From positions 62,001 through 126,000 of the forward strand of contig CALXRI010000004.1 of assembly GCA_944390795.1 (NCBI GenBank): a DNA stretch of 64,000 nt, given 5' to 3'. The notes beneath the pieces were generated by a model. The model saw only the letters and a program-made list of their open reading frames with translations. It had not been told where the DNA came from and ran no database searches. The stretch is from an uncultured Victivallales bacterium. GTDB taxonomy: Bacteria; Verrucomicrobiota; Lentisphaeria; Victivallales; UBA1829. The position numbers were made by a program, and so were the translations under genes. Positions 2-13,903 of this stretch are shown here, in pieces. The first letter of the stretch is position 1; each line of letters starts with the position of its first letter.

Positions 2-3000
2 AATGCCGCGGGCACATTGACAGTTTCCGATTCCGCCGTTCTTCAGGGCAACATCGCAACCGGTTCCGGCGGCGCGATTTACAATGCCGCTGATGGAACT
101 TTGATTGCCATGGTCGCGCAATTCAGCGGGAATCATGCGGATTCCGGTTCCGGCGGTGCGATTTACAATGCCGGTTCTCTGACGGTTTCCGGAACCGAAT
201 TCCTTGCGAATGAATCCGAGGATGGCGGCGCGATTTACAATGAAGGAGCGCTGCAGTTTACAGAAGGGACCAATACGGTCTTTGCCGGCAATACAGCAAC
301 CGGAAACGGCGGCGCGATCTACAACGCCTCCAGTGATCTTCAGCTTGCCTATGCCTCATTCACTGACAACAAAGCTGTGAATGGCGGCGCATTCTATAAT
401 GCCGGACAGAATGTTTCGATCACAGGTGTCGTATTCGGCGGCATGTCGGAAGACGGGACTGTAGAAGGAAATACCGCTGCAAACGGCGGCGCGATCTACA
501 ATAAGGGGACCATGCTGACGGTTACCGATGCTGTGTTCAGCGGCAACACGGCAACCGGAGACGGCGGCGCTCTCTACAATGAAGGCGCATTGACCATGAC
601 TGGCGGCAGTTTCACCGGAAATACCGCTGCAAACGGCGGCGCAATCTACCATAAGGGGACCATTCTGACGGTTACCGATGCTGTGTTCAGCGGCAATGCC
701 GCGACTGCAAACGGCGGCGCGATCTACAATGCCTCGACGGAATCCGTGCAGTTTACAGGGACCTTGTTGACCGACAACATTGCAACCGGAAACGGCGGCG
801 CATTCTATAATGCCGGACAGAATGTTTCGGTTACAGGCGTCGTATTCGGCGGCATGTCGGAAGACGGGACAGAAGAAGGAAATACCGCTGCAAACGGTGG
901 CGCGATTTACAACGCCGCAGGTGCGGTTCTGACACTGGATGCCAGCTCGGCTTTCTCGTATAATAAAGCGACTGGTTCCGGCGGTGCGATCAGCAACAGC
1001 GGCACCCTGAGTGTCAGTGCGTCCTTCAGCGACAACCGGGCTGAACAGAATGGCGGTGCGATCAGCAACAGTGGCACGCTGAATGTCAGGAATGCGTCCT
1101 TCAGCGACAACCGGGCTGAGCAGAATGGTGGTGCGATTTATACGGATACTTCGGTCACCGTGAATAACTCCGTGTTCAAGAACAACCGGACGTCCGGCGA
1201 CGGCGGCGCAATTTCCGGTTCCGGCGTGACCGTGAATGGCGGTACCTTTACAGGGAACCACGCGGATAACGGCAGCGGCGGTGCGATCAGCGGCAGCAGT
1301 CTGAGTGTCAGCAATGCGACCTTCACCCGCAATACCGCGACAAACGGCGGCGCGATTTCCGGTTCCGGCGTGACCGTGAACGGCGGTTCCTTTACAGAGA
1401 ATCAGGCGGATAACGGCAGCGGCGGTGCGATCAGCGGCAGCAGCCTGAGTGTCAGCAATGCGACCTTCGACCGCAATACCGCGACAAACGGCGGCGCGAT
1501 TTCCGGTTCCGACGTGACCGTGAAGGGCGGCACCTTCGACCGCAATACCGCGACAAACGGCGGCGCGATTCTGGCGAACGGTTCGCTCTCCGTCAATTCG
1601 AATTTCACGGGCAATAAGGCCAGCTCCAACGGCGGTGCGATTGCGGCATTTGGAGCTGATACGACCATCTCCGGCACCTTCACCGGCAACAGTGCGACTG
1701 TTGCCGGCGGCGCGGTATATCTCGATCAGGGCGGCACTCTTGCAAATATCACCCTGACTGGCAATACCGCGCAAGACGGCGCGGCGGGTTACAGTGCGGA
1801 CGGTGCATTGACAATGAATTCCGCCACAGTGACCAGCAGCAATGCAAAGAACGGTTCCGTTGTAACCAGCCTCGGCGACAAGACGGTCATCCGGAACAGC
1901 AGTCTTTACAAGAATACTGCGAGCGGCAGCGTTGTGAACGCGCCGAACGGCGAACTCTTCCTGATTTCGACGACGGTTGCGGAAAACAGCGGCGTTGCCG
2001 GAACCGATGTTGTTGGCGCGGATGTCTCGATCGTGAACTCCACAATCGCCGAAGCCAGGAAGAATGATGTGCTGGTTCAGGCGGGCGGCGACGTCCAGAT
2101 TGCAAACAGCATCGTCGTCGGAGCAGAAGCCGGAACCACGGTCATCGAAGCCGACGGCGATATCGACGGAGCCTATTCGCTTCTCGGACAGGTCGCTTTG
2201 GGCGGCACATTCAACAATGAATACGGAACCGTGACGATGAATCAGTCCTATGCCGATGTCTTCAGGTCGAATACCGTGAACGGCAACGGTCTGATATCCC
2301 TTCCGTCCGGCTCTCCGGCAATGGCGGGTGTTTGGACCGCGGTGGATACCGATTCGGCTTCCGAGGCCTACGGCAGCGTGTATTACACAACCCGTCCCGA
2401 TGGCATATGGACGCAGGGCTACAACCCGAATAACATGAATTGGAATCTGCTTGGTGCCGGATCCATCGGCGGGCGCGGAAATCTACCATCCAGCGCGACG
2501 GTTTCCGTTGGAAAGGCCGGAGGAACCTATCCGAGCATGGGGGCCAGCTGGAATCTCGCATGGACTCCGGATCCCGGACACGGCCTGAACAGCGATTTCA
2601 TCAAGCCTTCTGAAAACGGTGTCGCACACAGCATTTATGACATTTACAATGCCGTTTCGGACAGGTTGTATGCGAATCCGGGCTATCTGCTGAATTTCCG
2701 CAATGAAGTTTCTGGCGCCTCCCGCCTGAGCTACGACTTCATGCACGAGTTTGACGACCGTTACCGGACCATGGGCGAGTTCTCCGTGACGATCGGACGT
2801 TTCGACCTCGGATTCGTTCCGAGCGGCGAGACGCACATCACAGTCAACGTGAAGGGCGATGTCTCCGACGACTTTACGAGATATACGACGACGCCGTATC
2901 TCTCGGACGGCACTCCGCTGATTCCGGAGGAACTCAAGCCGATGAATTCCGAGACCGAGCCCCCCGCCGCCGAGGGGACTGCCGCACTGCCGGAGGGACT

Positions 3001-3094
3001 GGAGGAGAAAGTCATGGCCTATCTGGGACGTGCGGAAATCTTCAAGAATGATTTTGACAAGGCTCTGGACCGCCTGCTGGCCCTGAACGTCTGA
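2..3094 (+). CDS. Polymorphic membrane protein-type repeat surface protein (5' end outside window)
   Basis: The reading frame is open to the left edge: the codons before the first possible start (TTG at 17) still read as repeat (NAAGT), so the N-terminus, including any signal peptide, lies upstream. About 570 residues consist of degenerate repeats with GGAI(Y/S) and F-x-x-N motifs, the hallmark of chlamydial polymorphic membrane protein repeats, which fold as a right-handed beta-helix. From about residue 590 the repeats fade, and the last 300 residues are non-repetitive with a charged end. I see no C-terminal autotransporter barrel, so export must depend on other proteins. The TolC/HlyD/M50 genes follow at once on the same strand and are the obvious candidates. 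A surface adhesin or structural role is inference. Confidence 0.85.
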   Translation, partial: NAAGTLTVSDSAVLQGNIATGSGGAIYNAADGTLIAMVAQFSGNHADSGSGGAIYNAGSLTVSGTEFLANESEDGGAIYNEGALQFTEGTNTVFAGNTATGNGGAIYNASSDLQLAYASFTDNKAVNGGAFYNAGQNVSITGVVFGGMSEDGTVEGNTAANGGAIYNKGTMLTVTDAVFSGNTATGDGGALYNEGALTMTGGSFTGNTAANGGAIYHKGTILTVTDAVFSGNAATANGGAIYNASTESVQFTGTLLTDNIATGNGGAFYNAGQNVSVTGVVFGGMSEDGTEEGNTAANGGAIYNAAGAVLTLDASSAFSYNKATGSGGAISNSGTLSVSASFSDNRAEQNGGAISNSGTLNVRNASFSDNRAEQNGGAIYTDTSVTVNNSVFKNNRTSGDGGAISGSGVTVNGGTFTGNHADNGSGGAISGSSLSVSNATFTRNTATNGGAISGSGVTVNGGSFTENQADNGSGGAISGSSLSVSNATFDRNTATNGGAISGSDVTVKGGTFDRNTATNGGAILANGSLSVNSNFTGNKASSNGGAIAAFGADTTISGTFTGNSATVAGGAVYLDQGGTLANITLTGNTAQDGAAGYSADGALTMNSATVTSSNAKNGSVVTSLGDKTVIRNSSLYKNTASGSVVNAPNGELFLISTTVAENSGVAGTDVVGADVSIVNSTIAEARKNDVLVQAGGDVQIANSIVVGAEAGTTVIEADGDIDGAYSLLGQVALGGTFNNEYGTVTMNQSYADVFRSNTVNGNGLISLPSGSPAMAGVWTAVDTDSASEAYGSVYYTTRPDGIWTQGYNPNNMNWNLLGAGSIGGRGNLPSSATVSVGKAGGTYPSMGASWNLAWTPDPGHGLNSDFIKPSENGVAHSIYDIYNAVSDRLYANPGYLLNFRNEVSGASRLSYDFMHEFDDRYRTMGEFSVTIGRFDLGFVPSGETHITVNVKGDVSDDFTRYTTTPYLSDGTPLIPEELKPMNSETEPPAAEGTAALPEGLEEKVMAYLGRAEIFKNDFDKALDRLLALNV
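60..1725 (+). repeat. Tandem GGAI/FxxN coding repeats
   Basis: The repeats are visible at DNA level as recurring GGCGGCGCGATTTAC-like blocks roughly every 50-75 bases. Some units are nearly identical, for example the blocks at about 1204, 1356 and 1492 and those at about 466, 616 and 877. Such similarity suggests recent unequal recombination or gene conversion within the gene. They encode the beta-helix of the surface protein. Confidence 0.85.
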
Positions 3095-3141
3095 CAAGGA
3101 AGATGAAAACGATGAAAGCATACGGAACAAAGGAGGAGAAA

Positions 3142-5307
3142 ATGCGGCACGGTTCGCATCGGATTGCGCTTGGAGTTGCGGCTGTTCTGGTTCTGGCCGG
3201 AGGCTGCAAAACCGCGGATGATTACCGCAGGGAGCGGGTGAAAAACGCGGTGGAGCAGTTCAATCAGGCAAAGAAAACAGAGCTTGCCAAGGAAAAGGGC
3301 GTGCTGACGCTTCAGGACTGCATGGGGCTTGCCGTCAAGCATAATCTTGACCTGAAGGTTCAGAATCTGGAAAAGGATGCCGCCAGAAACATCATGATGG
3401 CGGAGCTCCTCGGCATGCTTCCGGATCTGACGATTTCCGACAGCTTCACCGGCCGCTCCAATCAGCCCGGCTCCAGCAGCAAGGCCGTGGCGAGCGACGG
3501 CGACACCTACGGCTACAGCACGAGCACTGACCGCAACGTCAACAATCTGAGCGTGGATCTCGCCTTCAGTCTTCTGGATTTCGGGCTCGCGTTTTTCAAT
3601 ACGCAGCAGAGCCACGACCGCATGCTGGTCAAGGAGAAACAGATTGAACGCGCCGCGCAGAATCTTTCGCTTGAAGTGGTGCGCGTCTATTTCAAGGTCG
3701 CCGCCGCCCAGCGCGCGATCAAGGTGACGACCAAACTGCTCGAGGACTGCAAGAGCCGTTACGAGCTGATTAAAAAGCTGGCTGCGGAAAACAAGATCAC
3801 GCCGTTCCGCGCAACGGATGAAACGACCCGTTTCCTCGCGATGGAAAAACGCCTGACCAACTATACACGCGGCTATGAAAGCGCATGCGTCGAGCTGCGT
3901 TCTCTGCTCGGCGTGTATCCGTCCTCCCGGATCGTGGTGGACGAGAGTCCGCTGGACACGGTTCCGGAATTCGATTTCCCCGATATCGAACTCCTGGAGC
4001 AGATGGCGATCCTGAAACGCCCCGAGCTGTATGAGATCGACATTCAGAAGCATATCAACATTCTCGAGTGTCGCAAAACCCTCCTGATGATGCTGCCGAA
4101 CGTGAGAATGTATGTGGACTTCATCAACAACAACAATTCCTTCCTCTATCATCAGAGCTGGTGGGAACTTGCCGTGAAGGCCGCCTACAACGCATTGAAG
4201 ACCCCGCAGTACATCTCCCGCTACATGGCATACAGCGATCAGGCGGATCTGGAGGAAATGCGCAGCTTCGCCCAGGCGATCGCGGTCATGTCGCAGGTCC
4301 GGATTGCAAAGGCGGACATCGTTTCAAGCCGTGAGCGTTTCGAGATCAACCGCCGGGAGCATGAGGAATACAGCAAATACCTCAAGGCCGCGCTGGCCAC
4401 CAAGAGTGTTGACGGTTCGGTTACACAGCTGGATATCGATCATCAGCGTCTGCGGACGGCGGAAACCGAGATCGAACGCCTGATGTCTCTCGGCGCATAT
4501 TATATCGCGCATTATCGCCTTCTGAATGCGATCGGCGTGAAGAATCTTGACGCAAAAACCCAGAGCGAGCTCAAGGCGGAACTCGCGGCGGCACGGGAAA
4601 GCGCGGCGGAGGAGCTGGAAAAAGCGCGTGCCGAGTATGCCGCCAGGCAGTCCGCAGTCGAGGACGCGCGCATTGCGAGAATTCTCTTCGATGACGGTTT
4701 GAAGCTCTACCGTGAGGACAACGCGCAGGATGCCGCGGTGTATTTCGAGCGTTCCGCCGCCAAGGGGAATGCCTCTGCGATGTTCTGCCTCGGTAAAATG
4801 TACTGGACCGGAAAAGGTGTGGAAAAGAACCCGCAGAAGGCCGCGGAGCTTTTTGTGCAGGCCGCGGACAAAGGCAACCTCGAAGCGATGGTGCTGACCG
4901 CATGGCTGTATTACAAGGGCAATGTCCTGCCGGAGAATCATGATCTTGCATTCAAGTATTATCAGATGGCCGCGGACAACGGCGATGAGAAGAGTCTGTA
5001 CTGGCTTGGCTGCCTTTCCTGTGAGCGCGGCGATTACAAAGAGGCTCTGGACTATTTCAAGAGGTCCGCGCGCGGAGGGGAAGCCGCATCGATGGTCTGG
5101 GTTGGCAGTCTCTACCGCAGCGGAAAAGGCTGTGAGAAGGACTATGCGAAGGCGATGCTCTGGTACAGGCGTGCCGCGGACAAGGGCAATCCCGAGGCGA
5201 TGAACAACATTTCGATGATGTATGCCGCCGGTGACGGTGTCCCTCGGAATCAGCAGGAAGCCGACAAGTGGTTCAAGATGGCGGAGGCGGCGTTTGCAAA
5301 ACGCTGA
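3142..5307 (+). CDS. TolC-family outer membrane protein with C-terminal Sel1 repeats (lipoprotein)
   Basis: This is an outer-membrane efflux channel-like protein of 721 residues. I chose the ATG at 3142 because AAAGGAGGAG sits just before it and a lipoprotein-type signal with a LAGGC box follows within 30 residues. ATGs at 3103 and 3112 are in frame but poorer. Residues about 50-475 have the helical OEP pattern (LTLQDCMGLAVKHNLDLKVQN start, long heptad segments). A charged coiled coil follows at about 475-513, then about 200 residues of Sel1-like repeats (A..G...AM..LG.MY..G.GV..). Canonical TolC proteins lack Sel1 repeats. The fusion suggests a periplasmic protein-binding platform. It lies just downstream of the repeat protein and before two HlyD-type genes. 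Confidence 0.85.
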   Translation: MRHGSHRIALGVAAVLVLAGGCKTADDYRRERVKNAVEQFNQAKKTELAKEKGVLTLQDCMGLAVKHNLDLKVQNLEKDAARNIMMAELLGMLPDLTISDSFTGRSNQPGSSSKAVASDGDTYGYSTSTDRNVNNLSVDLAFSLLDFGLAFFNTQQSHDRMLVKEKQIERAAQNLSLEVVRVYFKVAAAQRAIKVTTKLLEDCKSRYELIKKLAAENKITPFRATDETTRFLAMEKRLTNYTRGYESACVELRSLLGVYPSSRIVVDESPLDTVPEFDFPDIELLEQMAILKRPELYEIDIQKHINILECRKTLLMMLPNVRMYVDFINNNNSFLYHQSWWELAVKAAYNALKTPQYISRYMAYSDQADLEEMRSFAQAIAVMSQVRIAKADIVSSRERFEINRREHEEYSKYLKAALATKSVDGSVTQLDIDHQRLRTAETEIERLMSLGAYYIAHYRLLNAIGVKNLDAKTQSELKAELAAARESAAEELEKARAEYAARQSAVEDARIARILFDDGLKLYREDNAQDAAVYFERSAAKGNASAMFCLGKMYWTGKGVEKNPQKAAELFVQAADKGNLEAMVLTAWLYYKGNVLPENHDLAFKYYQMAADNGDEKSLYWLGCLSCERGDYKEALDYFKRSARGGEAASMVWVGSLYRSGKGCEKDYAKAMLWYRRAADKGNPEAMNNISMMYAAGDGVPRNQQEADKWFKMAEAAFAKR

Positions 5308-5327
5308 TCCGGGGTTCCGGCATTTCA

Positions 5328-5361
5328 AATCCCGTTCGTATATGCGAGCGGGATTTTTTTT
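5328..5361 (+). terminator. Rho-independent terminator after the TolC-Sel1 gene
   Basis: AATCCCGTTCG and CGAGCGGGATT form an 11-base-pair stem (one G-U pair) with a short TATATG-like loop, followed by eight or nine T residues. It separates the TolC gene from the downstream adaptor genes, so the latter may have partial read-through or their own promoter. Confidence 0.85.
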
Positions 5362-5429
5362 GTTTTCCCCTTTGCTTTTTCCGCTTCATGCAGTATAGTC
5401 ATACGGACAAATGTAAGGAAAAAACACGC

Positions 5430-6221
5430 ATGAAGAACTTATCGCCCATCCTGCCGCTCCTGTTGGTTTTCCTCGTTTCGCTCTCCGGTGCGGAAATGAC
5501 TTATGATTCCCTTCCTGTCAAAGTTGTGCTGTTTCCGTACCGCGAGGCCATTCTTTCCACGCAGATCGACGGCGTTGTCGAAAAATACAGTTTCCGGCCG
5601 GGGGAACGTTTCCGGAAGAATGACGTTCTTCTGAAGCTGGACGAGACGAAATACAACAACGATCTTCTCCGGATGCGCTCGTTGATGAAGGAGGCGGAGC
5701 TGAATGCCGCTTATGCGAAGCAGAAATGGGAGGACAACAGGCGTCTGTTCAAAGAGGATCTCCAGAGCGAGATCGAAGTGATGAAATCCGAACTGGATGC
5801 GAATGTTTCCGCCGAACGTTTCCAGACCGCCCGGATCAATTATGCCGACGCTCTGCTGCAACTGGCGTTCTGCACGATCAAGGCGCCTTTTGACGGAACC
5901 GTGGAAAAGCATCTGACACGTGAATTCGAGACCGTCCGCAATGGACAGCCGCTGATCTCGATTATTGATGACAATCGCCTTCTCGGAGTCATGAACCTGC
6001 CGACGACCTGGCTTCCGAAGATCAAAATCGGGATTCCCGTCACATTCAAGGTGAATGAAACAGGCAGTGTCGTGACCGGAACTGTTTTCGAAATCGCGGG
6101 ACGTGCCGATCACCGGAGCGAAACCATCGAAATCAAGGTCCTGCTGGACAACGCCGGACACCGCTTTTCCGCGGGGATGTCGGGGACGCTGATGAAAGTG
6201 GGAGACGGCAATGGGAAATAA
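5430..6221 (+). CDS. HlyD/RND-type periplasmic adaptor (membrane fusion protein)
   Basis: A short adaptor of 263 residues. The start at 5430 is supported by TAAGGAAA nine bases upstream and by a typical signal peptide (MKNLSPILPLLLVFLVSLSGA). Without this choice the frame would open inside the upstream gene. A lipoyl-like motif follows (ILSTQIDGVVEKYSFRPGE, about residues 40-60), then an alpha-hairpin (about 75-130), the second lipoyl half (FCTIKAPFDGTVEKH) and a beta-barrel. In tripartite systems such proteins link an inner-membrane component to a TolC channel. It overlaps the next gene by 11 bases, implying translational coupling. Confidence 0.87.
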   Translation: MKNLSPILPLLLVFLVSLSGAEMTYDSLPVKVVLFPYREAILSTQIDGVVEKYSFRPGERFRKNDVLLKLDETKYNNDLLRMRSLMKEAELNAAYAKQKWEDNRRLFKEDLQSEIEVMKSELDANVSAERFQTARINYADALLQLAFCTIKAPFDGTVEKHLTREFETVRNGQPLISIIDDNRLLGVMNLPTTWLPKIKIGIPVTFKVNETGSVVTGTVFEIAGRADHRSETIEIKVLLDNAGHRFSAGMSGTLMKVGDGNGK

Positions 6222-7608
6222 TCCGCAGCAGGAAAACGCCGAACTGAAAGCGCGCCTGCACGCTTTTGCCGCAATCATGCGCCTGGGACGCGACGCGTTC
6301 GAGCAGCCGGATCTGTCTGCCGCGGCGGTGCACATTGTGAACAACTCCCGCACCCTGCTTGCCTATGAATCCTCCTCGCTCGCGGATCTGCGCGGAAAAA
6401 TCTCCATTCTGGCGGAGTATGCGCAGGTGGAGGTGAAGCAGCACACCGAATATGCATCGGATGTGAAAATCCTCTGCCGCAGTGTCGACCTGAGCGGAGG
6501 AGCCGTCGAACTGAAAGAGGGGAACGAGCCTTTCAGAAAGTTGACGGAGAAGGCGCGCGGCGCATTTGAACGCCTGACGGATGAAGGCGGTTCCCTGCTG
6601 CTGGTTCCTCTCCGCTCAGCGCGCTTTCGAAGTTCCGCGAAAGAGCCTTTTGTCTGGCTGATGACGTTCAAGGGCGCGGTTCCTCCCCATGCCGGAGCGA
6701 CGATTCCGCTGCTTGCCTCGGATTACGGCAATGCGCTCTGGAGCCATACCCCGCGGGGCGGGGCGCGCCTTCTGCTCAGATGGCTGCGCAGGATCACGCT
6801 GATCCGTGTTCTTCTGCTTCTGCTGCTGGCATTTGTGGTCGCCATGTTCACGGTGGATGTGGAGCATACCGTTTCCGCGGAGTTCGTGGTCAAGCCCGAT
6901 GCCGAATACAATTCCTACGCGTGGTTCGACTGTGTCGTGAAGAACTGTTTCTTCAATGACGGCGACGCCGTCAAGGCCGGCGACCGGATTCTGGAATACG
7001 ACACGGACCGGATGCGCTTCCAGCTGGCAGCCTCCGAAGCGGCTTTCAAGGAGGCGAACGCCGAATACGAGCAGGTGCTGAAGGCCTCTTTCACCGACCG
7101 GGAAAATCTCGGACGCCTGAAAGTCCTTGCATTCAAGCGCGACTCCGCCAAAGTTTCGATCGAGGAGGCGAAATGGTACCTGGCGCACAGCGTGGTGACC
7201 GCCCCCGTTTCCGGCATTCTCGCCATTGCCGGGGGAAGTGCGGACAAACTTGCCGGACGAGCTCTCCGGCTCGGTGAAAAACAGTTCGACATTCTTTCCG
7301 ACAAAGGGATGATCGCCGAGATCATGGTGAATGAAAAGGACGCTTCCGTCCTGGAAGGCAATCCGCGGATTACGCTGTTTCTGCATACCCGCCCGGAACT
7401 GCCGATTCCCGTGAAGATACTGTCTTCGCGTTTCTATCCGGAGCTGACCGAGCAGAACATTTACAGCTACAATGTGAAGGCGGAAATGGAGAACAACGTT
7501 CCCGGGCTCCGCTTCGGCATGCGCGGGGTTGCCAGGGTGACCGGTGAAAAAGTCAAGCTCGGCTACTATCTGTTCCGGAGTCTGGTTCTCTGGTACCGCG
7601 GCGTGTGA
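6211..7608 (+). CDS. GAF-like/HlyD fusion inner-membrane adaptor
   Basis: 465 residues in two parts. Residues about 1-190 have no signal peptide and resemble a GAF-type sensory fold (low-confidence fold call). One membrane segment follows at about 195-215 (ITLIRVLLLLLLAFVVAMF), then a HlyD-like periplasmic part with split lipoyl motifs, a hairpin and a barrel (APVSGILAIAGGS). The topology implies a cytosolic regulatory or docking domain and a periplasmic adaptor. It begins inside the preceding HlyD gene and ends in a GTGA overlap with the M50 gene, so the three products are probably made in proportion. No ATPase domain is present. Confidence 0.8.
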   Translation: MGNNPQQENAELKARLHAFAAIMRLGRDAFEQPDLSAAAVHIVNNSRTLLAYESSSLADLRGKISILAEYAQVEVKQHTEYASDVKILCRSVDLSGGAVELKEGNEPFRKLTEKARGAFERLTDEGGSLLLVPLRSARFRSSAKEPFVWLMTFKGAVPPHAGATIPLLASDYGNALWSHTPRGGARLLLRWLRRITLIRVLLLLLLAFVVAMFTVDVEHTVSAEFVVKPDAEYNSYAWFDCVVKNCFFNDGDAVKAGDRILEYDTDRMRFQLAASEAAFKEANAEYEQVLKASFTDRENLGRLKVLAFKRDSAKVSIEEAKWYLAHSVVTAPVSGILAIAGGSADKLAGRALRLGEKQFDILSDKGMIAEIMVNEKDASVLEGNPRITLFLHTRPELPIPVKILSSRFYPELTEQNIYSYNVKAEMENNVPGLRFGMRGVARVTGEKVKLGYYLFRSLVLWYRGV

Positions 7609-9797
7609 CGACGGACATGGACATGAATATGGATATGGATATGGAACACAATCCGGCATCGGAAACCGGAGAAAACAAGATGAACCCGGAAAATTTCCGG
7701 GAAACGCCGTCCCGAAAGACACAGGAGATCCGGACAGGCGTGATCCGCTCGGACATTCAGTTCATTCCGCCCGGAGAACACGGGGATTACGCGATGATTT
7801 TCGATCCTCTTTCCGAGGCGTATTACAAACTTTCCGAGCGCTCCTGCCGGATTCTCCAGCTGATGGACCGCAGTTATCCCCTTGACGAGTTTCTGGAGCG
7901 GGTCAATTCCTTCGGCATGGATACGGATCGGGAGGAGCTTCTGGAACTGCTTCATTTTCTCCATGCGAACAATCTGATCGCTCCCGAATACGGTGTTCAG
8001 GACGCCAAGGTCCGGCGCCATCGCGAGATGAAGGAGAAGAACACCTTTTACCGGATCATGGGCATGTATCTCTTTTTCCGCCTTCCGCCGATTCATCCGG
8101 ACGCTTTTTTCACGGCGACCATGCCGCTGATCCGCTTTGTCTTCAACCGCATCACGCTGTTTTTCATCATTGCCGCCGCCGCGGGCGGATACGTCCTTCT
8201 GGTGCGTTCCTGGAACGAGGCGTATGCGACATTCGTCAACTCCCTTTCCTGGGCGGGACTTGTGAAATATTTCTGGGCGCTTCTTGTTACGAAGTCTGTG
8301 CACGAACTGGCGCACGGCTACACGGCGAAGAGCTTCGGCGCCCGTGTCCGCGCCATGGGACTGAGCTTCATCGTGTTTTATCCGCGTCTTTTTGTGGATC
8401 TGACCGACACCTGGAGGCTTTCCCGCACAAAACGGATCGCCTGCGACGGAGCCGGCATTGCAAGCGAACTGATTTTCGGCGGGCTTGCGGCGATTGTCTG
8501 GGTGTATGCCTCTCCCGGTCCCCTGAAATCCACGATGTTTTATCTTTTCACCGTCAGTGCGCTGGGAACGATTCTTGTCAACGGGAATCCCTTCATCCGC
8601 TACGACGGATACTATCTGCTGTGCGATTTTCTGAACATCGAGAACCTGATGCAGCGTTCCAGCGAGTTCATCAAGGCATGGAACCGCCGTTTTTTTCTCG
8701 GGATCGGCTCATATCCGGACAGCGGCGACTGTTCGCCGCTGACGCTGTATCTCTTCGGCATCAGCGCCTTCGTCTACCGTCTCTTCCTTTATACGTCGAT
8801 CATTCTCATCATCTACTTCAAATTCACCAAACCCGTGGCAATCATCCTGATGGTGATAGAAGTCTACACAATGCTGCTGATGCCGCTGATTTTTGAGCTG
8901 AAGGCGCTGAACGCGCTCCGGAGGAGGGTGAACTGGGGCAAGACCTTGCTGACATTTCTTTTCGTATGCGGGCTTGTCTCGCTTCTTTTCATCCCGCTCC
9001 CCTGGTCGTTCAGCCTGCCTTGCGAGATCGTGCCGGAGTCCCGCCGCATCGTGACGGTAAATGAATCGGCGTTTGCCGCGAAAGAGCTCAAAGACGAACC
9101 GCTTGTCGTGCGGAAAGGGGATCTGATTCTGCCGTTCCGCAATATTTTTCTTGATTTCAACATCCGGCGTTACGAAATTGCCGCCGAACAGAACCGTGCG
9201 GAACTGAATCTTCTGCGTTCGGATACCGCGACGATCGGTTCGAGTCCCGCCGTATATGAAAAGTTGCGTGCGAACCTTCTGACACAGAACGAGATGAAAC
9301 GCCGTCGCGCCAACATGGCAGTGAAGGCGGATGCCTCCGGAATTTTTGTTCCCGCGATCAAGGACGTTTCAGAAGGCAGATGGCTGGAGAAGGGAACGAT
9401 CCTCGGGGAAATCGTATCGAAGAAAACCGCGGTGTATGCGTATGCGCTTGATCGCGAGGTCAACAGGATTCGGAAAGGCGACCGCGTGATGATTCGTCTT
9501 CGCGGTGAATTGAAGGAATATCCGGGCAGGATCGCTTCGCTTAATCCGGTTTCGGTCAAGTTCCGCGACTCCACGCTGGTGCAGGCTCTCGGCGGAATTG
9601 TAGCCTGCTATCCGAACCAGAAGACCCATGAGTTCACTCCAGTGAACGTGCTCTACTGCATTACCGTGATTCCCGACGAACCGATTTCCTGCCGTTCGGG
9701 ACGCACCGGTCTGGCCGAGGTGAAAAAGAGCTACCGCATGTCTGTGGAACTGATCCGTTCCCTGATGCACATCTTCTACCGCGAATTTTCATTCTGA
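7605..9797 (+). CDS. PqqD-like / M50 site-2 metalloprotease / HlyD fusion
   Basis: 730 residues. After a Met-Asp-rich start (MTTDMDMNMDMDME), residues about 45-130 look like a PqqD-type peptide-binding domain (FDPLSEAYYKLSERSCRIL). Multiple membrane segments carry the M50 zinc site HELAH (residues 233-237) and the distal NPFIRYDGYYLL motif with the Asp near residue 334, both intact. After further membrane segments, the C-terminal 250 residues form a HlyD-like barrel with a lipoyl-like stretch. This matches the family annotated as putative peptide zinc metalloproteases, whose substrates are mostly unknown. It starts at GTG 7605 in a four-base overlap with the previous stop. I infer that it recognises, cuts or exports the neighbouring surface protein or a peptide. 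Confidence 0.85.
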   Translation: MTTDMDMNMDMDMEHNPASETGENKMNPENFRETPSRKTQEIRTGVIRSDIQFIPPGEHGDYAMIFDPLSEAYYKLSERSCRILQLMDRSYPLDEFLERVNSFGMDTDREELLELLHFLHANNLIAPEYGVQDAKVRRHREMKEKNTFYRIMGMYLFFRLPPIHPDAFFTATMPLIRFVFNRITLFFIIAAAAGGYVLLVRSWNEAYATFVNSLSWAGLVKYFWALLVTKSVHELAHGYTAKSFGARVRAMGLSFIVFYPRLFVDLTDTWRLSRTKRIACDGAGIASELIFGGLAAIVWVYASPGPLKSTMFYLFTVSALGTILVNGNPFIRYDGYYLLCDFLNIENLMQRSSEFIKAWNRRFFLGIGSYPDSGDCSPLTLYLFGISAFVYRLFLYTSIILIIYFKFTKPVAIILMVIEVYTMLLMPLIFELKALNALRRRVNWGKTLLTFLFVCGLVSLLFIPLPWSFSLPCEIVPESRRIVTVNESAFAAKELKDEPLVVRKGDLILPFRNIFLDFNIRRYEIAAEQNRAELNLLRSDTATIGSSPAVYEKLRANLLTQNEMKRRRANMAVKADASGIFVPAIKDVSEGRWLEKGTILGEIVSKKTAVYAYALDREVNRIRKGDRVMIRLRGELKEYPGRIASLNPVSVKFRDSTLVQALGGIVACYPNQKTHEFTPVNVLYCITVIPDEPISCRSGRTGLAEVKKSYRMSVELIRSLMHIFYREFSF

Positions 9798-9944: not shown

Positions 9945-12086
9945 TCAGTTGATGAAAAGCATTTCGCGGTATTTCGGGAGCGGCCAGAGATCGTCGTCCA
10001 TCTGCTTTTCCAGAACATCGACCAGTTTCCGGAGCCTGGAGAGGGCTTCCACAATCGCCACGCCGTTTTTCTCCTTGGCAAGGGTCTTTTCCAGTTCCGT
10101 TGCGGCGCTGGAGATGCCGTCAAGGAGTCCGCCGATCGTTTCCGCAAGCGCCTTCTGGGCGGCAAGACCGCTCTTCAGACCACAGCCGTCCATCACAGCA
10201 ATCGTCTTGACCAGTTCCGCAAGCTGTCTGCTTCCGGCTGCAAGGATGATTGTCCGCACCATGTTCAGAGCGAGTTCTCCTTCGATGCGGATTTTCCGCT
10301 CGTATTCCTCGGTGAAAATCTCATAGCGGGAATGGAGCTCGACCGCGGAGAAGACCTTGTATTTTTCGAAGAGGGCGATATTGTCCTTGTCAAGCAGGGG
10401 TTTGAGCGCTTCCGGCGTGTTGCGCAGATTCGGCAGCCCGCGTTTCGCGGCCTCCTTCCGCCATGCTTCGCTGTAGTTGTCTCCGTTGAAGATGATGCGC
10501 TTGTGCGCCTTGATGATCTTCTGGAGCACCTTCTGGAGCCCGGTGTTGAAGTCCGCCTTCGGCAGTTTTTCAAGCTGGGCGGCAATGTCGTCGATTGCTT
10601 CTGCGAAGATTGTGTTCAGAATCACGTTGGCGCCGGCGCAGGACTGGCTGGAACCTGGCGCGCGGAACTCGAACTTGTTGTTCGTGAAGGCGAAGGGGCT
10701 TGTCCGGTTGCGGTCGGTCGCGTCCAGCGGAAGCGGCGGGAGCGTGTCCACGCCGATGCGCATCATATCCTTGTGCTTCGAGGATTTGAGATCGCCTTTT
10801 TCAAGCTGGTCGATCACGTCCGCGAGCTGTTCGCCGATGAAGATCGAAATGATTGCCGGAGGCGCTTCGTTGGCGCCGAGCCGGTGGTCGTTGCCAGCCG
10901 ACGCGGTCGCGCTGCGGAGCAGGTCGCTGTGCTTGTCCACCGCCATGATGATGGCGCAGAGGGTTGTCAGGAAGATCGCGTTCTGGTGCGGATCGGTCCC
11001 CGGATTCAGCAGGTTGATGCTGCCGTAGGCGGGGGACCAGTTGTTGTGCTTGCCCGAGCCGTTGATGCCGGCGAAGGGCTTTTCATGGAGCAGACAGACG
11101 AGACCGTGCTTTTCCGCGGTCTGCTTGAGAACTTCCATGATAATCATGTTGTGGTCGACGGCAAGGTTGAGCTCCTCGAAGACGGGGGCGATTTCGAACT
11201 GCGCCGGGGCGACCTCGTTATGACGGGTTTTGGCGGGGATGCCCAGCTTCCAGAGTTCGGAGTCCACATCGGTCATGAACGCGAGGATGCGGGGTTTGAT
11301 CGCGCCGAAGTAATGGTCTTCCAGCTGCTGATGCTTCGGCGGCGGCGCGCCGAAGAGCGTGCGTCCGCTCTGCACCAGATCGGGGCGCGCATAGTAGAAC
11401 TGTTCGTCGATCAGGAAATACTCCTGTTCCGCGCCGAGCGTGATCCGGACGTTCTTGGTTCCATCGTCGCCGAAGCACTTCATCATGCGGCGGACGGATT
11501 TGGTCAGCGCCTGCATGGAGCGCAGGAGCGGCGTTTTCTTGTCGAGCGCTTCGCCTGTGTATGCGCAGAAGGCGGTCGGGATGCAGAGGGTTGCACCGTT
11601 GCGTCCGCGCTTGATGAAGGCGGGACTTGTCGGATCCCAGGCGGTGTAGCCGCGCGCCTCAAAGGTCGAGCGGATTCCGCCGGAGGGGAAACTTGAGGCA
11701 TCCGGTTCGCTGACGATCAGGTTTTTCCCGGAGAACGAGAGAATCGCGTTTCCGTTCGCTGTCGGTTCGAGAAAGGAGTCGTGCTTTTCCGCGGTGGTGC
11801 CGGTCAGCGGCTGGAACCAGTGAGTGTAATGGGTGGCCCCTTTTTCGAGCGCCCACTCTTTCATTGCGTGAGCAACGGCGTCGGCGATGGAGGGATCCAG
11901 CGCCTTGCCTTCCCGCACGGTGTCCATCAGTTTCTGGTAGATCGGTTTCGGGAGACGCTCCTTCATGCGTCCGCAGTGGAACACGTCTTCCCCGAAGCTG
12001 TCCGTGGTGAAGGGGTTCAGGGCAACGTTCTCCTCGTCCTCGCGGGCGAGGATGCCTTCAATGGCCATTTTCCTGTCTGCATTCAT
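9945..12086 (-). CDS. glnN: Glutamine synthetase type III
   Basis: Makes glutamine from glutamate, ammonia and ATP. The 713-residue length is that of GSIII, far above GSI or GSII. Recognisable stretches are [11 protein letters not shown] (metal-binding Glu region), [13 protein letters not shown] (the substrate-binding loop), [11 protein letters not shown] and [10 protein letters not shown]. The start at 12086 is preceded by GAGGAG at a good distance. An in-frame upstream ATG at 12122 lies too close to the predicted transcription start to be preferred. A sigma-54 promoter lies directly upstream and a sigma-54 activator gene is divergent. The gene ends at a hairpin terminator. Confidence 0.95.
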
Positions 12087-12141
12087 TTTTGTATCACTCC
12101 TCAGTGGTTTCCTGTTATTCAAATCCCGATGCTCTTCTTCT

Positions 12142-12352: not shown

Positions 12353-13903
12353 ATGGCGGAAAGAAACGATATTGAAATCGCAGTGCTCAACCAGATCAGC
12401 CATGCCATTGTGCATGAGCTGAACGTTTCGGAGCTTCTCAACAACATTCTCAACATTCTGCGCAAGGAGATGGGGCTCATCCGGGGTACGATCACCCTGA
12501 AGCATGACGATACGCTTGTGATTGAGGCCTCCAACGGTCTGACGGACGAGGAGATCAGCCGCGGCAAGTACATGATCGGCGAGGGGATCACGGGAAAGGT
12601 CGCGCAGACCGGAAAGCCCGCGCTGGTTCCCGACATCTCGCAGGAGCCTGAATTTCTCGGACGGACACAGGCGCGCGGGAAAAACGAGCATGTCGCATTC
12701 ATCTGCGTGCCGATCATGCACCTTGACAACGTCATCGGCACTCTCAGCATAGACTGTCCCGGCGGAGACCAAGAGGAGCTCAAGCGCGATCTCCGGCTGC
12801 TTGACACGGTGGCGAACATCATGGCCGAGGCGGTTGCTTCCTGTCTGAAAAAATACGATGAGCGCCGTCAGCTTCTTGAGGAAAACATGCGCCTCCGCGA
12901 GGAGCTTGGAACTACGCCCCGCCCCCCGAATCTGATCGGAAACTGCAACGCGATGCGCGCGGTCTACAAGATGATCGGACAGGTCGCGAACAGTTCCGCA
13001 ACGGTGCTGATCCGCGGCGAATCCGGAACGGGAAAGGAGCTTGTCGCCCGCGCGATTCAGATGTCCAGCGGGCGGAGGGACAAGCCGTTCATTGCGGTCA
13101 ACTGCGCCGCACTGCCGGACAATCTTATCGAAAGCGAACTGTTCGGTTATGAGAAGGGGGCGTTTACCGGAGCCGTTTCCCGCCGTATCGGACGCGCGGA
13201 GGCGGCCGACGGCGGCACGCTGTTTCTGGACGAGATCGGCGATCTGAGCCAGCATGTGCAGGTCAAGCTGCTGCGCTTCATCCAGGAACGGACCTTTTCG
13301 CGTGTCGGCAGCAACGAGGAGATCAAGGTCGACGTCCGTCTTCTGACCGCGACCAGCCGCGACCTGGAGAAGCTCATGGAGGAGGGAAAATTCCGCGAGG
13401 ACCTCTACTACCGCCTGAATGTGTTCCCGATCCATCTGCCGAGCCTCCACAAGCGCCCGAGCGACATCATCCTTCTCGCGGATCATTTCCTGGAGAAATA
13501 CAACCGTCTTCACGGGAAGAACATCGCCCGCATCTCCACGCCCGCCATCAACATGCTGATGGCCTATCACTGGCCGGGCAACGTCCGCGAGCTGGAGAAC
13601 TGCATCGAGCGCGCGGTCCTGACCGCCGGGGACACCGTGATTCACGGGTATGACCTTCCCCCTTCGCTTCAGACCGGAGAGGCTTCCGGCACGGCGGTGA
13701 TCCATCCGAACATCAAGGCGGATTTCCAGACACTGGTCAATTCCTTTGAACGCGAGCTGATCGTCGAGGCGCTGAAGGCGAATCACGGAAACGTCGCAGC
13801 GGCCGCGCGCCAGCTCGGGCTTTCGGAGCGGATCATTCATTACAAGATCAGGAATCTGGGGATTACGCCGGACTGGTACCGGCAGAGAAAAAACCAGAAG
13901 TGA
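12353..13903 (+). CDS. Sigma-54-dependent activator, NifA-like (GAF-AAA+-Fis HTH)
   Basis: 516 residues. There is an N-terminal GAF domain (about 20-165), a linker, then an AAA+ domain with Walker A GESGTGKE (about 222-229), the sigma-54 contact loop GAFTGA (about 269-274), Walker [12 protein letters not shown] and the R-finger region. A Fis-type helix-turn-helix lies at the C-terminus ([25 protein letters not shown]). The domain order and the end motif are those of NifA. No nif genes are in the window, and the divergent glnN with a -24/-12 promoter makes control of glutamine synthetase the likely job. The GAF ligand is unknown. GGAGAGGAG precedes the ATG. Confidence 0.9.

Follow-up and report, generated by a model that had tools for sequence, protein, structure and literature searches.

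How might a bacterium export proteins thousands of residues long when no SecA2 motor accompanies them? The question is raised by the first 10 kb of a 64,000-nucleotide stretch of DNA (the window, contig C4:62001-126000) from the 3.44-Mb, 95% complete genome of an uncultured Victivallales bacterium. At positions 2-9797 on the + strand, the end of a gene for a giant repeat protein is followed by genes for a TolC-type channel with Sel1 repeats, an HlyD adaptor, a second adaptor and an M50 metalloprotease fused to an HlyD domain. An earlier note on this DNA had listed all five, and Pfam and NCBIfam searches found each of them. We read the last three genes, referred to below as the triad, as a Lentisphaeria variant of the M50/GAF-HlyD/HlyD module that lacks SecA2 and exports giant proteins guided by an N-terminal leader, and we consider this on balance probable. 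The evidence consists of the gene order, the leader and C-terminal motifs of the giants, their co-occurrence with the protease, the intact protease motifs, and the absence of SecA2 and of an HlyB/HlyD-type pair from the source genome.

The giant protein and its leader

The window contains the C-terminal 1,030 residues of the giant (2..3094, + strand), which are made of POMP/beta-helix repeats (Pfam PF02415; NCBIfam TIGR01376, the POMP/Chlam_PMP repeat) and close with RAEIFKNDFDKALDRLLALNV. The complete protein has 4,542 residues and starts at C4:51466, 10.5 kb upstream of the window. Its first residues are MRKQRRQRKIEIFRLEDRVLFEAAGA, and its N-terminal sequence reads MRKQRRQRKIEIFRLEDRVLFEAAGAAEAVEAVENA; this beginning includes FRLEDRVLFEA, and the leader LEDRVLFEA occupies residues 15-23. 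A Pfam scan of the full length placed a DUF4347 domain at residues 308-453 and detected many POMP/beta-helix repeats. The earlier note had predicted a shared leader upstream of the window, and this proved correct: the motif has a single match in the source genome, exactly where the giant gene begins, and it is common to giants across the order.

The giants could be ordinary Sec substrates, in which case the triad would act later, in a step from the periplasm to the surface. The presence of a housekeeping SecA and the basic, K/R-rich beginning of the giant's N-terminus are compatible with such a route. However, hydropathy analysis found no hydrophobic signal core in residues 1-45, where the best 15-residue mean is 1.27 and is broken by charges, and the leader is instead a conserved charged motif at residues ~4-33. 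Hence, we regard this route as improbable. The earlier note's description of a repeat protein without an autotransporter barrel holds for all 4,542 residues, as Pfam and NCBIfam scans of the full protein detected neither an autotransporter domain nor a C-terminal beta-barrel. With autotransporters and chlamydial Pmp proteins the giant has only the Pmp repeat in common.

Conservation within the order

The nearest relatives of the source organism are metagenome-assembled genomes (MAGs) of Lentisphaeria/Victivallales, the closest of which are 92-93% identical in the M50 protein. In 56 of 73 loci from named genomes, the HlyD, GAF-HlyD and M50 genes stand in this order on one strand; a recognisable giant accompanies 24 of these 56 and a TolC gene 23, many contigs being too short to show whether either is present. 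The leaders of the order's giants, located at residues ~4-33, include LEDRVLFEA, LEERVLFEA, LEDRILFDG, LEERILFDG, LENRMLFDA and similar variants, with the consensus FxLE[DE]R[VI]LF[DE][AG] after a K/R-rich stretch. A degenerate DNA pattern of the leader gave 16 forward matches in 12 of 41 genomes and none in the reversed control, and 11 of these 12 genomes carry the M50 fusion. Leader motifs also stand at the start of open frames of 16,206, 20,466 and 19,216 codons (G011:C15 [L098, L331], G052:C142 and G055:C1, respectively), which rank among the largest bacterial frames met in this analysis.

The search for DUF4347 made no use of the leader. Of 41 relatives, 23 have the M50 fusion and 18 do not; DUF4347 was found in 18 of the former and in none of the latter (Fisher 1.7e-7). 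The five M50-positive genomes without DUF4347 comprise four that are 56-80% complete and one with a partial M50 match only. In a phylum-wide sample of 388 genomes (80 with the fusion, 308 without), both occur in 42, the fusion alone in 38, DUF4347 alone in 11 and neither in 297, that is, 42/80 versus 11/308 (5e-24, a test that, like the one above, counts related genomes as independent). The 11 genomes with DUF4347 alone rule this domain out as an exclusive marker of the system. M50 and DUF4347 also differ together within genera (g26, G040 versus G247 and G256; g13, G027 versus G047 and G168), with exceptions in g13 such as G093 and G099. The conserved neighbourhood and the co-occurrence with giants that the earlier note proposed to look for are thus both present.

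The complete giants of the order end, moreover, in a common helix-like motif. The window's tail reads AEIFKNDFDKALDRLLALNV, that of the 16,206-codon frame AEVFRDEFDEAIEAMLTMS, and a further example is ADAFKGDLEKLLEELIEA. A profile built from ten rumen-clade tails retrieved the window's tail with an E-value of 0.0012 among 2,078 tails, and no unrelated tail scored below 0.7. Since type I secretion uses C-terminal signals, this motif keeps alive a rival explanation of that kind, to which we return below.

A SecA-bearing version outside the order

The earlier note knew of no described system of this composition. This did not hold, as Kamneva, Poudel and Ward (2015; PMC4452313) had reported M50/HlyD, GAF/HlyD and HlyD genes, sometimes with OEP, as a conserved module accompanied by a secondary SecA. 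An operon of the SecA2 type is reported from the laboratory strain Methylobacterium extorquens AM1 (PMC4452313). No substrate is named for that module in the portion of their paper considered here. Outside the order, we found the HlyD, GAF-HlyD and M50 genes followed by a SecA-like protein of ~650-700 residues in 16 of 20 loci; the one such protein that was scanned has SecA_DEAD and preprotein cross-linking domains. Most of the large proteins encoded nearby have leaders of the LEPR-XLL type; nine of these loci show such a leader at the N-terminus of a large neighbour, for example LEPRILLSA, LEQRMLLSG or LEDRVLLSA. Matches to NF012209, the LEPR-XLL model, are present in 22 of the 25 genomes that have both M50 and a second SecA versus 6 of the 363 others (2e-27).

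The order of the source organism departs from this pattern in both respects. A SecA domain search of the source genome found a single SecA and no second one. More than one SecA match was obtained for 1 of 44 M50-positive genomes of the order (G259, a doubtful case) versus 25 of 36 outside it. The giant gave no NF012209 match up to an E-value of 0.1, and the source genome as a whole gave none. A quick tree, which has long branches, places the SecA2-less M50 proteins together on one side of a branch whose SH-aLRT support is 100; two Desulfobacterales sequences and one planctomycete sequence group with them. Two Desulfobacterales genomes (L158 and L161, the latter with the full triad) carry the Lentisphaeria-type M50 fusion, which suggests horizontal transfer or a binning error in a MAG.

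The resemblance to the module of Kamneva et al. is therefore close but incomplete. The window contains an M50 protein that is homologous to theirs and likewise fused to HlyD, a separate HlyD adaptor and a nearby OEP, and both sets lack an ABC transporter. The GAF-HlyD fusion is represented here by its HlyD part, the GAF part being below Pfam detection, and the secondary SecA_DEAD protein is absent. A further difference is that leader-sharing giants are linked to the system here, whereas the portion of the paper considered has no substrate (PMC4452313). Similarly, LEPR-XLL proteins resemble the giant in being very large and in having an N-terminal leader with an LE-x-R-hydrophobic core, but the leader is LEPRILLSA there and LEDRVLFEA in the window's giant, which fails the NF012209 model.

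The module and the LEPR-XLL motif were each known already, and the M50/GAF-HlyD/HlyD gene set is not new. Our literature search, whose range ended short of subscription journals and bioRxiv, found no paper joining the giants or LEPR-XLL to the module. The titles and abstracts of the LEPR-XLL papers that it found mention no export function, and a passage of one of them mentions no sorting role. The coincidence of the SecA-type module with the LEPR-XLL leader outside the order looks new, as does the combined loss of the secondary SecA and change of leader within it. The literature searched also appears to contain no description of the C-terminal motif or of a lineage that lacks SecA2 and has a leader type of its own.

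Channels, adaptors and protease

Two channel genes accompany the giant. A TolC-type gene encoding 558 residues with a lipoprotein-type N-terminus lies directly upstream of the giant gene. The second (3103..5307, + strand; PF02321 3.3e-18, PF08238 2.2e-32) encodes an OprM-like TolC-family outer-membrane channel lipoprotein with the lipobox LAGGC and four C-terminal Sel1 repeats, an extension found only in close relatives. In the gap between this gene and the triad there is an intrinsic terminator (5327..5356, + strand) with a 13-bp stem, a 4-base loop and a T-rich tail. Because this strong terminator separates them, the giant/TolC-Sel1 genes and the triad are, judging from the sequence, probably two transcription units.

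The first triad gene (5430..6221, ATG at 5430, + strand) encodes a periplasmic adaptor of the HlyD/RND type (PF13437 4.4e-18; TIGR01730 135 bits against a cut-off of 94.9) with an N-terminal hydrophobic signal according to hydropathy. It overlaps the second gene (6211..7608, + strand) by 11 bases, and the second overlaps the third (7605..9797, + strand) by 4 bases, in accord with the overlapping frames reported earlier. The second protein combines a GAF-like domain, one transmembrane helix (~195-213) and a periplasmic HlyD adaptor (TIGR01730 8e-12), and its model (predicted local distance difference test score, pLDDT, 86.7) matches MacA and MexA. Its single strongly hydrophobic segment is preceded, on the N-terminal side, by basic residues; hence, by the positive-inside rule, the GAF-like domain would be cytoplasmic and the adaptor periplasmic. 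Pfam called no GAF domain in this protein or in its order-level relatives, but it did so in the SecA-associated homologues, and the predicted secondary structure of the window's protein is compatible with GAF.

The third protein has a PqqD/RRE-like N-terminal domain (~45-121), an M50 metalloprotease domain, a periplasmic HlyD domain (~465-711) and a conserved C-terminal end. The protease motifs HELAH (233-237) and GNPFIRYDG (327-335) provide, within transmembrane helices, the HExxH and the downstream DG of site-2 proteases, and the zinc-binding and catalytic residues H233, E234, H237 and D334 are invariant in all 22 aligned M50 homologues from the order. In the model (mean pLDDT 80.6), residues ~52-121 form three strands and three helices and are followed by membrane helices and a MacA/MexA-type adaptor domain; the topology of the first part fits a winged three-strand, three-helix fold. 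Searches of the PDB with the models returned adaptor matches alone among the 50 best. The best NCBIfam match is to the daptide M50 intramembrane metalloprotease (E 1e-46, under the curated cut-off). In daptide biosynthesis, an RRE is fused to the intramembrane site-2 protease MpaP, which adjoins precursors with an ELExMEAP motif and to which the authors assigned leader removal (PMC10036551). MpaP and other RRE-M50 proteases (PMC10036551) share with the window's protein the M50 protease and an N-terminal domain that is, in the window's protein, putatively of the leader-binding type. The window's protein differs in having a C-terminal periplasmic HlyD domain and in its neighbours, which are TolC and giant genes rather than enzymes for ribosomally synthesized and post-translationally modified peptides (RiPPs).

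In another explanation, the cargo of the triad would be some small molecule or short peptide, in the manner of RiPP or efflux systems, and its closeness to the giants would then be incidental. Among known proteins, proteases of RiPP maturation come nearest to the M50 protein, both adaptors score as efflux-type in NCBIfam, the terminator lies between the giant unit and the triad, and in one genome (G001) the two lie ~45 kb apart. On the other hand, giants and triad are correlated at the level of both the order and the phylum, and the leader type switches with the exporter type. In addition, an inspection of the loci, which was not systematic and did not list open reading frames of less than 100 residues, brought no short precursor-like gene to light. 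We find it hard to credit a small cargo on this evidence.

ABC exporters and type I secretion

The earlier note called the system free of ABC exporters and named an ABC exporter upstream in the same operon as the observation that would count against it. No ABC or RND gene was found within the window or in the upstream genes examined. Neither member of an HlyB/HlyD pair was detected in the source genome, which gave no match to the HlyD of type I secretion systems (T1SS) and a best ABC match of 31% identity. In three rumen relatives, however, an HlyB-type ABC gene and a T1SS HlyD gene lie directly upstream of the TolC-giant-triad genes (L135, 2-3237; L137, 2-2238; L143, 2-2997), and a T1SS adaptor occupies the corresponding place in L147, L169 and probably L146. 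Such an exporter thus lies upstream in some relatives but not in the source genome. These three rumen Lentisphaerae combine two export systems within a single gene cluster.

It could accordingly be argued that the giants leave by type I secretion, with the ABC and HlyD components encoded elsewhere. They would exit C-terminus first by means of their C-terminal helix, and the role of the triad would be confined to holding or cutting the N-terminus, comparable to that of LapG with LapA-type adhesins. The rumen clusters and the common tail motif favour this explanation. The set here resembles HlyB/HlyD/TolC systems, including those of LapA-type giant adhesins, in having an adaptor, a TolC-family channel and, as substrates, giant repeat proteins whose C-termini are conserved; type I substrates carry an uncleaved C-terminal signal, and the giants here have a conserved C-terminal helix motif. 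What differs is the N-terminal leader, the M50 fusion and the lack of an ABC exporter in the locus and of a detectable HlyB/HlyD pair in the genome. Furthermore, the pair, which has homologues at other places in many of the order's genomes, is uncorrelated with the giants: DUF4347 giants occur in 8 of 17 genomes with the pair and in 10 of 24 without it (p = 0.76), and eight genomes have the pair but neither the M50 fusion nor a DUF4347 giant. The Pfam scan of the full giant detected no RTX repeats. Type I export of the giants is in our opinion unlikely, if less so than the two alternatives discussed above.

Two candidates for a missing ABC engine were set aside. The HlyB/HlyD pair does not track the giants, and homologues of the source genome's own MsbA-like ABC transporter and efflux-type adaptor on contig C16 are also present as pairs in M50-negative genomes, which lack the triad. 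Where examined, the HlyB/HlyD pair has other surroundings and sometimes stands beside other large repeat proteins. Those near the pair in G002 and G025 (L313, 14387-18000; L314, 823-6558) have no LEDR leader and may be the pair's own substrates.

Proposed mechanism

Leader-guided export by the triad could proceed as follows, with leader binding, cleavage, the conduit, the energy source and a surface location of the giants all proposed by us. In the cytoplasm, the giant's leader would dock onto the PqqD/RRE-like part of the M50-HlyD protein, and the M50 intramembrane protease would remove or clip this leader. The three barrel-sandwich adaptors (HlyD, GAF-HlyD and M50-HlyD) would form or gate a periplasmic conduit leading to the OprM-like TolC lipoprotein encoded beside the giant gene. 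The conserved C-terminal amphipathic helix might act as an additional element for recognition or retention. Elsewhere in the phylum, the step would be powered by SecA2 and the leader would be LEPR-XLL; in this order, the housekeeping SecA/SecYEG would be the most likely source of energy.

Several observations weigh against this reading. The locus contains no gene for a motor, and export of the giants, leader binding and cleavage are deduced from genes and motifs. The PqqD-like part suggested by the earlier note agrees with the model topology and with the daptide M50 match, but its sequence match is weak (Pfam E 0.065), and PqqD is absent from the PDB matches of the N-terminal domain profile, which are themselves weak and probably due to chance. 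The 11 phylum genomes mentioned above have DUF4347 but lack the M50 fusion, G093 being a clear case inside the order. To these must be added the dependence among related genomes in the co-occurrence tests and the ABC genes of the rumen relatives.

A bolder version of the same idea is that proteins of thousands of residues are exported here without a dedicated ATPase. The RRE-M50-HlyD protein would read the LE-x-R leader, the two adaptors and the OprM-like channel would provide the path across the outer membrane, and housekeeping Sec or the proton-motive force would supply the energy, LEPR-XLL being the same signal in an ancestral, SecA2-driven type. We put this forward tentatively, as a possibility that is somewhat less than even.

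Neighbouring genes

A gene resembling type III glutamine synthetase lies on the opposite strand (9945-12122, - strand) and ends just past the M50 gene. Further downstream, a GAF-AAA-HTH protein similar to sigma-54 activators (12353-13903, + strand) could be a regulator of the neighbourhood.

Implications

A cultured host of triad loci is available in Victivallis vadensis DSM 14823, which has three. The Lentisphaeria version poses the question of how the products of open frames reaching 16,206 codons would be exported without a SecA2 motor. In a wider sense, the SecA2 module was described in 2015 but had no substrate assigned to it, and LEPR-XLL was an unexplained motif at the N-termini of very large proteins; the link between them gives both a testable function, as exporter and leader.

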